Shown here: positions 7,091 to 11,343 of the stretch, piece by piece | Numbering within the stretch: the stretch's first letter is position 1 | How the letters are laid out: each line of letters opens with the position of its first letter | Source: Campylobacteraceae bacterium | GTDB taxonomy: Bacteria > Campylobacterota > Campylobacteria > Campylobacterales > Arcobacteraceae | Direction of reading: 5' to 3' | DNA: 64,000 nt | Assembly: GCA_013215945.1 (NCBI GenBank) | Contig: JABSOM010000001.1 | Location: 310,001 to 374,000 of the forward strand | The notes under the pieces: model-generated | Databases searched by the model: none | Told to the model about the DNA's origin: nothing | The model's input: only the letters and a program-made list of their open reading frames with translations | Translations under genes and position numbers: made by a program

Positions 7091-8047
7091 CTAAGTATTT
7101 AAATAACAATTTTTTTCATTGTCTTTACAACTTAAGGTATCGCTTTGAATAAGTATATGATTAAAACCCAAATCTTTTAGTTTGGCTCTAATTTTATTGT
7201 TTATTTTTTCAACTTCTTCCAGAGATAGTTCTTTGTTTTTTAAAACCAAATGAAAAGAAATAAAAGAATATTTTGAGCTTGGTTTTATTATATGCAAATC
7301 ATGATACTCTTCTATGTTTTCATGGCATAAAATCAACTTATCTAAATCTTCTTCTTTTATATTAGTAGTATTCACATCCATTAAAGATAAAAAACTTTTT
7401 TTCAATAAAGAATAAGAATGAAAAAGAATATAAACAGAAAAAACAATGGTTAAAACAGAATCAATATAATAAATCTCATAAAAATAAATAAAAATCCCAG
7501 CAATAACAACACCTAAAGAGATTAAAGCATCACTTAACATATGCAAATAAGCTGATTTAATATTCGCATCTTCATGGTGATGCTCATGTTTATGTCCATG
7601 TGTTTCTGCTTGTGTTGCTTCATCTGAATGATCATGTGAAGAACAAGAAGATACACCCATTCCATTTAAGATATAAGCAGAGATTCCATTAGCAATAAAA
7701 GCAATAAAGCCAACAGTAATCATATATAAAGGCTCTATTACCAAAGGATTAAAAAAACGCTCAATTGCTACATATATCATTACAAACATAGTGATATATA
7801 AAAACAAGGTATTTACAAAAGCAGCCATCATTTCTGCTCGTATATAACCAAAAGTAAATTTATAAGAAAACTTCTTAGATCCTAGTTTTAAAGCAATATA
7901 CGTAATAATAACAGCTAAAACATCCCCTGTATTATGCAAAGCATCAGCGATTAAAGCAAAAGAGTTAGAGATAAAACCAAAGACCACTTCACAAATAATA
8001 ATAATTACATTAAAAACAATAATTAATAAAATCTTTTTTTCGTTCAT
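7091..8047 (-). CDS. Cation diffusion facilitator (zinc-type) exporter
   Basis: The 318-residue protein has six membrane helices. The metal site uses the HxxxD pairs His38/Asp42 in helix 2 and His169/Asp173 in helix 5, the arrangement of zinc/cadmium CDF proteins such as CzcD and ZitB. A histidine-rich cytosolic loop lies at about residues 138-160 (SHDHSDEATQAETHGHKHEH). The C-terminal 90 residues form the usual ferredoxin-like cytosolic domain. It exports divalent metal in exchange for protons. It stands alone on its strand. Confidence 0.93.
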   Translation of the reverse strand: MNEKKILLIIVFNVIIIICEVVFGFISNSFALIADALHNTGDVLAVIITYIALKLGSKKFSYKFTFGYIRAEMMAAFVNTLFLYITMFVMIYVAIERFFNPLVIEPLYMITVGFIAFIANGISAYILNGMGVSSCSSHDHSDEATQAETHGHKHEHHHEDANIKSAYLHMLSDALISLGVVIAGIFIYFYEIYYIDSVLTIVFSVYILFHSYSLLKKSFLSLMDVNTTNIKEEDLDKLILCHENIEEYHDLHIIKPSSKYSFISFHLVLKNKELSLEEVEKINNKIRAKLKDLGFNHILIQSDTLSCKDNEKNCYLNT

Positions 8048-10310: not shown

Positions 10311-10471
10311 TAGAAATCCTTTATATTCACAGTAGATAATAATATCAGAACATCATAACATTATAATCTTTTACTTTCTTTAAATAAGTAATAAAATTTA
10401 TTTACAATAAACCCACATATTTAGCTAGATTTATTGTAAATAAATATTTAATAATATTAATTTTGAAAAAG

Positions 10472-10493
10472 AGGAAAGTATAAATACCTTCCT
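10472..10493 (-). terminator. Intrinsic terminator of the cysteine-rich gene
   Basis: On the minus strand AGGAAGGTA, loop TTTA, TACTTTCCT forms a 9-bp stem with one G-U pair. CTTTTT follows immediately. It lies 6 bp after the stop of the cysteine-rich gene and supports a separate short transcript. Confidence 0.75.
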
Positions 10494-10498
10494 TTTCT

Positions 10499-10651
10499 TT
10501 AACTACAACAAGCATCCTGCTTGCAACAAGTATTATCTTTACAACAATCTTTACATTCACACACACAAGTGTTTTCACTTGAACAAGTACATTCACACTC
10601 ACAGTTTTCACACTCACAGTTTTTTATATTTTCACAACAATTATTTTTCAT
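10499..10651 (-). CDS. Small cysteine-rich, metallothionein-like peptide
   Basis: A 50-residue frame starts at the ATG at 10651 after AAGGA with a 6-base gap. It contains 17 cysteines (34 percent), mostly as C-C, C-x-C and C-x2-C, with no aromatic residues. The start is MKNNCCENIKNCECENCECE and the end is NTCCKQDACCS. The rest is Asn, Glu, Lys, Thr and Ser, a composition typical of metallothioneins and other soft-metal-binding peptides. There is no signal peptide. The gene has a complete transcription unit: an ECF-type promoter at 10682-10709 and a terminator at 10472-10493. It is divergent from an ECF sigma gene that carries the mirror-image promoter. Homology to a named family is not claimed. 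A metal buffer or thiol reservoir is the likely role. Confidence 0.8.
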   Translation of the reverse strand: MKNNCCENIKNCECENCECECTCSSENTCVCECKDCCKDNTCCKQDACCS

Positions 10652-10681
10652 CTTTTATCCTTTATTTTTGTCTTCACTACT

Positions 10682-10709
10682 AAGACGTAAAAGAAGAAAA
10701 AAGGTTGCA
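10682..10709 (-). promoter_or_regulatory. ECF-type promoter of the cysteine-rich gene
   Basis: On the minus strand TGCAAC (10709-10704), 16 T-rich bases and CGTCTT (10687-10682) give a start about 24 bases before the ATG. With the facing copy at 10741-10768 it forms a near-perfect inverted repeat with arms of about 30 bp. Confidence 0.65.
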
Positions 10710-10740
10710 TTTTAGAAATTTCATATTTTTCTTGTAATAA

Positions 10741-10768
10741 TGCAACTTTTTATTTACTTTTTCGTCTT
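10741..10768 (+). promoter_or_regulatory. ECF-type promoter of the second sigma factor gene
   Basis: TGCAAC (10741-10746), 16 T-rich bases and CGTCTT (10763-10768) precede an AAGGAG ribosome site and the sigma ATG at 10789. Its match to the promoter of the divergent cysteine-rich gene suggests that the sigma factor activates its own gene. Confidence 0.65.
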
Positions 10769-10788
10769 ATACTATAGAAGGAGTTATT

Positions 10789-11343
10789 ATGAAAGAAAAA
10801 ATTGAAGAAGCTTATATTAAATTTTCAAAAGCACTTTTATATTTCATTTTAAAACATGTTTCAAATAAAAGCACAGCAGAAGATTTATTGCATGAAGTAT
10901 TTATAAAAGCCTATAGCAATATAGAAGATATTAAAGAAGATGAGAATATACAAGCGTGGTTGTATAAAATAGCAAGAAATACAATAATAGATTATTACAG
11001 AAAAAACCAGATGAAAACAACGCAAAACTATGAGCTGTATTTTGAAGAAGAACAAGAAGAATCAGTGTTAAGTGAATTGTCTTGTTGTTTGTCTACTTTG
11101 CTTAAAGACTTACCTTTAAAACAGCAAGAGCTATTAAATGAAGTGTATTTAAAAGAGAAGTCTTTGGTTGAATATGCCAAAGAAAAAAACTTGAATTTAT
11201 CAAGCGTAAAATCCACTTCGAAAAGAGCCAAAGAAAAACTAAAAAAGATTTTTAATGAATGTTGTAAGTTTCAAGAAAATTCAAGACATGAGATTGTTGA
11301 TTATTCTTATAATAATAAAGATTGTATATGTAAAACACAATAG
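10789..11343 (+). CDS. SigZ-like ECF sigma factor with cysteine-bearing tail
   Basis: This 184-residue ECF protein has region 2 at about residues 10-74 (AEDLLHEVFIKAYSNI, IQAWLYKIARNTIIDYYRKN) and region 4 at about 105-155 (LPLKQQELLNEVYLKEKSLVEYAKEK, then the recognition helix SSVKSTSKRAKEKLKK). Cys99-Cys100 in the linker and Cys158-Cys159, Cys179 and Cys181 in the tail match or flank the cysteines of the sigma factor at 544-1119. The tail motif CCKF...IVDY...CIC resembles SigZ-type tails. No anti-sigma gene follows. The next gene is convergent. It probably drives its own promoter and the cysteine-rich gene, and may also recognise the LysE operon promoter. Confidence 0.88.
   Translation: MKEKIEEAYIKFSKALLYFILKHVSNKSTAEDLLHEVFIKAYSNIEDIKEDENIQAWLYKIARNTIIDYYRKNQMKTTQNYELYFEEEQEESVLSELSCCLSTLLKDLPLKQQELLNEVYLKEKSLVEYAKEKNLNLSSVKSTSKRAKEKLKKIFNECCKFQENSRHEIVDYSYNNKDCICKTQ

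Follow-up and report, generated by a model that had tools for sequence, protein, structure and literature searches.

In the window, the stretch of 64,000 nucleotides analyzed in this study, two genes diverge from a common intergenic region. The gene sigZ1 (10789–11343, plus strand) encodes a SigZ-type ECF sigma factor of 184 aa, as assigned by Pfam, NCBIfam, and orthologues. The opposite ORF (10499–10651, minus strand), which has homologues beside sigZ1 in related genomes, encodes a cysteine-rich, metallothionein-like peptide of 50 aa with 17 cysteines. These ORFs and their coordinates agree with the original prediction, which placed a SigZ-like sigma gene and a 17-cysteine peptide gene divergently at an inverted repeat. 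A terminator-like hairpin with a T-run, detected by folding, lies 3′ of the peptide gene (10472–10493, minus strand), and its position, 10472, is the lower coordinate of the region first noted. No anti-sigma-like gene was found beside sigZ1 upon inspection of the ORFs and Pfam matches. Additionally, an A+T-rich inverted repeat (10393–10448), with 19-nt arms that are 95% complementary and an 18-nt loop, is located between the peptide gene and a chemotaxis receptor gene. A CDF (cation diffusion facilitator) transporter gene (7091–8047, minus strand), a possible metal link, lies ~2.4 kb from the peptide gene.

Architecture of the mirror promoters

Each strand of the sigZ1 locus carries one TGCAAC-N16-CGTCTTA element, and both elements face outwards. 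For sigZ1, the candidate promoter (10741–10769, plus strand; TGCAACtttttatttacttttt-CGTCTTA) comprises a −35 box TGCAAC (10741–10746), a 16-nt spacer, and a −10 box CGTCTTA (10763–10769), and it is identified from the sequence, the relatives, and the family consensus. For the peptide gene, the candidate promoter (10681–10709, minus strand; TGCAACcttttttcttctttta-CGTCTTA), identified from the sequence and the relatives, comprises TGCAAC (10704–10709), a 16-nt spacer, and CGTCTTA (10681–10687). The claim that each arm contains TGCAAC-N16-CGTCTT with equal spacer length is borne out on both strands. Based on the distances, the two −35 boxes are separated by an A+T-rich stretch of 31 bp (10710–10740), which measures 30–33 bp in relatives. 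Downstream of each −10 box come a Shine-Dalgarno-like sequence and then the start codon; as read from the sequence, this element is AGAAGGAG ahead of sigZ1 (10776–10783, plus strand) and AGGA, within AAAGGATAAAAG, ahead of the peptide ATG (10658–10661, minus strand).

The 30-nt arms share the same base at 24 of 30 positions, and the promoter region emerges as a strong inverted repeat on folding (z −6.7). The inverted repeat of the original prediction is real, but it exists because the two promoters mirror each other, and promoters elsewhere are usually in tandem. Similarly, the T-rich spacer is present at both sites but is not locus-specific, as it belongs to the general SigZ (and ECF) consensus. 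In the 3.24-Mb genome, the pattern TGCAAY-N15-17-CGTCTTA has two matches, both at the sigZ1 locus, and the reversed pattern, used as a control over the whole genome, has none. A relaxed pattern (TGCAWC...CGTC) has 12 genome sites, among which only the sigZ1 pair and one site before a LysE-type gene and sigZ2 combine a T-rich spacer with a position outside ORFs.

Conservation in Arcobacteraceae

To assess conservation, 104 genomes of the family were scanned for the mirror promoter pair. The pair occurs in exactly five of them (G000, which is the genome of the window, G087, G088, G089, and G091) and is absent from every other genome of the 104. These five are also the five genomes with sigZ1, and each has a divergent Cys-rich ORF of 39–55 aa, so that all sigZ1-bearing genomes keep the small ORF as well as the promoter pair, two features whose absence from relatives would have counted against the original prediction. 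The sigZ1 orthologues of G087 and G091 match at 94% and 63%, respectively, and the copies in G088 and G089 are cut by contig ends. The peptide homologues adjoining sigZ1 comprise 55 aa in G087, 46 in G091, and 39 in both G089 and G088. The peptide ORF is small, composition-biased, and without a family match, which would fit a spurious, untranslated ORF whose divergent promoter yields a non-coding RNA. However, its reading frame and cysteine pattern have survived in-frame indels and TGT/TGC codon changes across the five genomes, and its start and Shine-Dalgarno are likewise kept. Moreover, equivalents occur at SigZ loci of another phylum behind the same promoter. We therefore regard a non-coding product as barely conceivable.

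In divergent relatives, only the two hexamers and the spacer length persist, and the rest of the intergenic DNA diverges. This pattern bears on a further reading, in which the strongly folding arms would serve another regulator, such as an ArsR-type repressor, as an operator or a DNA/RNA hairpin, with only an incidental likeness to promoters. We rejected such an element as the primary function, and consider it very improbable, because the relatives keep the hexamers and their spacing only and most other SigZ loci have the same elements as single, non-inverted promoters. Furthermore, the predicted transcripts begin outside the repeat, so neither would carry both arms.

SigZ1 and its cysteine tail

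The Pfam model Sigma70_r2 matches SigZ1 above the cut-off (8.5e-15), Sigma70_r4_2 lies marginally below it (1.2e-5; 25.3 vs 25.7 bits), and the NCBIfam sigma70-ECF match is above the cut-off. SigZ1 consists of regions 2 and 4 only and has the length of about 180–190 aa that characterizes ECF (group IV) sigma-70 factors. Its best NCBIfam matches, with E values of 9e-47 and 2e-40, are the two SigZ models TIGR02959 and PRK09637, but its bit scores stay below both equivalog cut-offs (138.2 against 168.65 bits; 159.3 against 212 bits). Judged by its sequence, SigZ1 is SigZ-type but no SigZ equivalog under NCBI's rule. It also has the CC...C tail and the predicted autoregulatory TGCxxC/CGTCT promoter, which are features of SigZ derived here and not by NCBI.

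The C-terminal cysteine tail (11260–11331, plus strand) is proposed as a metal or thiol sensor based on alignments, AlphaFold2, and comparison with the PDB. It contains four cysteines, Cys158–Cys159 (codons 11260–11265, plus strand), located by alignment, and Cys179 and Cys181 (11323–11331, plus strand), read from the tail sequence. Another cysteine, Cys100 (11086–11088, plus strand), is positioned in the first helix of region 4. The tails were compared in 108 retrieved sigma ORFs. Among 64 SigZ proteins, Cys158 is invariant and Cys159 is present in at least 90%, and both are invariant in an alignment of 30 proteins. In two alignments, one of them of 30 SigZ proteins, Cys100 is nearly invariant. 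The AlphaFold2 model places a β-hairpin after region 4 (residues 159–174; E159–163/E169–174) with a block pLDDT of about 78–89; its domain placement is of low confidence (pTM 0.48), and it gives no metal site. Foldseek with SigZ1 returned ordinary ECF and other sigma factors only, with PDB ECFs as the best matches in both sequence and fold. The sequence matches to these PDB ECFs end ahead of the tail, which is absent from the solved ECFs compared.

The cysteine-rich peptide

The peptide consists of 34% Cys, arranged in CxC and CC motifs, and has no aromatic residues and no His. By sequence it has the composition of a metallothionein, namely, a small, Cys-rich protein with CxC/CC motifs and few aromatics. 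The peptide has no match in Pfam or NCBIfam at E up to 1, the known metallothionein families of these libraries included, and no match in the PDB at E up to 10 or in a plasmid search.

A second SigZ module in the window

Another SigZ module lies on the minus strand of the window. A SigZ-type promoter, TGCATC-N16-CGTCTAC (1789–1817), identified by the pattern scan and in relatives, precedes an operon that begins with a gene for a LysE-type exporter (PF01810 by Pfam; 1128–1718) and continues with sigZ2 (544–1119). The latter encodes a second SigZ-type sigma factor, assigned by alignment and tree, of 191 aa with a CC...C tail. Downstream of sigZ2, a gene encodes a rhodanese-domain protein (52–468, domain match). 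The promoter of this operon is found at the equivalent place in loci L028, L006, L007, L009, and L038, and as TGCGTC in L008 and L011; several Campylobacterota keep the LysE-sigZ2 pair together with its promoter. The LysE-linked sigZ2 clade groups in the SigZ tree with SigZ proteins from Pseudomonadota that are linked to ArsM. A recent local duplication giving rise to sigZ1 and sigZ2 was rejected, as the two fall into separate clades.

Gene neighborhoods of the SigZ family

Scanning a single genome per species with a profile yielded 80 named SigZ loci, and two further genome searches added more. The loci span Campylobacterota, Bacteroidota, Bacillota, Chloroflexota, Nitrospirota, Pseudomonadota, and others. 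Adjacency was analyzed at 125 SigZ loci, a set that was not fully de-duplicated and retained a few near-duplicates. A short Cys-rich ORF adjoins sigZ at three of three scored sigZ1 loci of Arcobacteraceae, at 26 of 53 loci of Bacteroidota, where the ORFs comprise 21–49 aa, and at 1 of the 69 other SigZ loci. As controls, no such ORF was present in 125 windows 600–900 nt away or in 20 loci of non-SigZ ECFs from the same class, and shuffling gave a mean of 0.2 in 125 loci. The trait changes at least seven times on the SigZ tree, and the ORFs are downstream, upstream, convergent, or divergent relative to sigZ. These peptides are too cysteine-biased to argue homology between phyla.

Peptide and sigma thus closely co-occur and adjoin, and together with the co-regulation from the mirror promoters, this would also suit a circuit in which the Cys-rich peptide is itself the sensor. 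The peptide would then act as a small anti-sigma or a redox/metal switch that holds SigZ1 and frees it on metal loading, with SigZ1 driving both genes; zinc anti-sigma factors release bound sigma upon metal loading. However, most SigZ loci have no peptide, and ArsM, ArsI, and other enzymes occupy that promoter slot. In addition, the peptides have no common fold or length (21–55 aa), and the sigma has a conserved cysteine tail of its own. Based on these observations, a sensing peptide is unlikely, and we favor the tail of SigZ1 as the sensor.

Among 98 loci, ArsM is found beside sigZ at 24, and the other neighbors are ArsP-like permeases (11), DUF2703 proteins (10), ArsI/CadI (8), ArsR (7), CopZ-like proteins (3), and ArsC (3); LysE-type exporters (10) occur in the SigZ2 group of Campylobacterota. 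The ArsM, ArsI, ArsP, ArsR, and ArsC neighbors, together with the conserved cysteine tail, indirectly support a metal or thiol role, as suggested by these sequence associations. Arsenic is the most frequent genomic theme of SigZ loci, and any soft metal is possible for the sigZ1 locus. The signal might instead be thiol/disulfide stress or reactive electrophiles, in which case the circuit would be real, the cysteines would be redox switches, and the peptide would be a thiol buffer. This alternative agrees with a sensor and a target that are both cysteine-only, with the rhodanese gene adjoining sigZ2, and with a glutathione S-transferase gene near Vibrio SigZ. In contrast, the neighbors and targets are dominated by arsenic and metal genes (ArsM, ArsI, ArsP, ArsR, ArsC, and CopZ-like) over thioredoxin/peroxide genes, and thiol stress is accordingly a possible but rather doubtful signal compared with a metal(loid).

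The predicted SigZ promoter across phyla

A PWM trained on TGCA-type sites was applied to sigZ upstream regions. The PWM scored 48 of 120 regions above the 99% null, where 1.2 were expected, and recovered TGCGTC-type sites that had not been supplied in training; about 60% of the upstream regions have no strong SigZ promoter site. The resulting consensus is TGC(A/G)(T/A)C-(C/T)TTTT...CGTCT. Across 620,930 bases of SigZ loci, the derived pattern TGC[AG][AT]CN[AT]TT-N11-13-CGTC[AT] matches 121 times, whereas its reversed form has no match in the same bases and the pattern itself has none in non-SigZ ECF loci (69.5 kb + 51.4 kb). With near-duplicates removed, 33 sites precede sigZ, a count that is partly circular because the pattern was drawn after viewing the PWM output before sigZ. 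The sites before partner genes were uninspected at that time and are the stronger, less circular test; they precede Cys-rich peptides (19), ArsM (19), DUF2703 (8), ArsI/CadI (7), LysE-type (6), ArsP-like (5), and CopZ-like (1) genes. At 15 loci, one site lies before sigZ and another, separate site before a Cys-rich peptide. Moreover, the −35 element of Bacillus subtilis SigZ has a C at −34 (PMC6713349), which ties SigZ independently to TGC-type −35 boxes.

Taking the pattern counts in the genome, the 104 genomes, the SigZ loci, and the non-SigZ ECF loci with their controls, we rejected a chance resemblance of the promoters. The earlier proposal that one sigma drives both genes gains support from the same predicted promoter class before sigZ and its partner across the family. 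Collectively, the architecture, the promoter conservation, the family-wide linkage of promoter and target, and the cysteine conservation can be read directly from the DNA and its translations, and at this level the circuit is strongly supported.

Proposed mechanism of the SigZ1 circuit

We consider it likely that SigZ1 is a self-activating and probably anti-sigma-free factor whose tail senses thiophilic metal(loid)s and which induces a metal-binding peptide. From the above data, we infer that SigZ recognizes these promoters, that the tail senses a signal, and that the peptide binds metal and resets the switch. SigZ1, probably without an anti-sigma partner, would bind TGCAAC-N16-CGTCTTA and direct outward transcription both ways, into sigZ1 as positive feedback and into the peptide gene. 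Cys100, Cys158–159, and Cys179/181, carried by region 4 and the appended β-hairpin, form the proposed sensor site. Candidate signals that would switch SigZ1 on are thiophilic metal(loid)s such as As(III), Sb(III), Cd, Cu(I), or Hg, or else thiol oxidation. The peptide might then chelate the metal, which would lower the signal and reset the switch. Outside this phylum, ArsM, ArsI, ArsP, DUF2703, CopZ-like, and LysE-type genes would be the targets of the same sigma and promoter class.

With somewhat less confidence, we think it probable that the SigZ family as a whole comprises phylum-crossing one-component sensors of arsenic or other thiophilic metal(loid)s that use one conserved promoter, TGC(R)(W)C-N15/16-CGTCT. 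Different detoxification genes would have been recruited to this promoter time and again, and in Bacteroidota and Arcobacteraceae these would include undescribed families of metallothionein-like peptides.

Comparison with known systems

SigZ was named in 1997. B. subtilis yrpE/ZinT, taken as a neighbor of sigZ, was rejected as support, since yrpE is transcribed from a sigma-A promoter under the control of Zur and the source is silent on sigZ. The role of B. subtilis SigZ is listed as "Not yet determined" (PMC7522486). SigZ1 resembles the family of B. subtilis SigZ, TIGR02959, and PRK09637 as its best-scoring family and in the C at −34 of the −35 box, as in TGCR/TGCA, but differs in a score under the equivalog cut-offs. 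No regulon or sensor role for SigZ was found in the open-access literature searched. Furthermore, the searches of an open-access library yielded no paper in which SigZ is paired with metallothioneins, cysteine-rich peptides, or arsenic genes, although ECF group descriptions may already list ArsM next to SigZ-like sigmas.

The closest likeness in action is to CorE and CorE2 of Myxococcus xanthus, formerly ECF44 and now ECF238, in which the cysteine extension of CorE senses metal without an anti-sigma (PMC8999054). We propose metal(loid) switching of SigZ by analogy with this extension. Both systems involve an ECF sigma that acts, or in the case of SigZ1 probably acts, without an anti-sigma, a cysteine-containing C-terminal extension that is a proposed or demonstrated metal sensor, and metal-resistance targets, which for SigZ1 are predicted. 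In contrast, CorE has a CXC in the linker between regions 2 and 4 and a longer Cys-rich C-terminal domain, whereas SigZ1 has no such CXC between residues 72 and 88 and carries a cysteine in helix 1 of region 4 plus a tail that is short and of the form CC-hairpin-C. The two also differ in family, promoter class, and targets (ArsM and Cys-rich peptides for SigZ), and the review covering CorE does not mention SigZ (PMC8999054). As SigZ1 is CorE-like in its proposed action but no member of CorE, being without the linker CXC, and scores below the SigZ cut-offs, we describe it as an ECF switch of the SigZ type that bears a cysteine tail and has a metallothionein-like target.

The peptide is similar to the bacterial metallothioneins SmtA/BmtA and MymT in being very small, very cysteine-rich, and a proposed soft-metal chelator. 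However, it has no Pfam or NCBIfam match, and it would be under sigma-factor control instead of a repressor; MymT belongs to the regulon of the copper-responsive RicR (PMC10141476). Compared with ArsR-controlled ars operons, SigZ would share the targets ArsM, ArsI, ArsP, and ArsC but would activate them as an ECF sigma through a promoter class of its own, and at some loci it adjoins ArsR. If this is true, ars genes have a second kind of control, by activation, alongside ArsR, and self-contained sensor modules would be available for arsenic or metal biosensing. The common promoter, the cysteine tail, and the arsenic/metal and Cys-rich targets lead to a specific proposal, namely, that SigZ is an anti-sigma-free metal(loid) switch. 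In addition, the SigZ promoter motif allows regulons to be read from genomes and exposes short Cys-rich peptides missed by curated family libraries and, probably, by annotation pipelines.

Further SigZ loci

At L049, L051, L055, L056, L058, and L065, sigZ is followed by a gene for a DUF2703 protein (PF10865) that has a SigZ-type promoter ahead of it, and this placement suggests a metal(loid)-related role for the uncharacterized family. ArsI/CadI-type enzymes are encoded upstream of sigZ behind SigZ-type promoters at L098, L100, L105, L106, and L108, in relatives of Nitrospira and Nitrospinota, and the Nitrospira loci also have a gene for an aldo/keto reductase next to the ArsI/CadI-type genes. 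At L041 (G379, from the order of the window genome), a gene for a CopZ-like zinc/2Fe-2S protein, itself preceded by TGCAAC-N17-CGTCTTA, diverges from sigZ, and the sigma of this locus belongs to the SigZ lineage closest to sigZ1. Finally, L103 (Stygiobacter electus) has back-to-back SigZ promoters ~1.1 kb upstream of sigZ. They are placed between two divergent genes for methyltransferases, of which one is ArsM-like, and indicate that mirror layouts recur with different targets.
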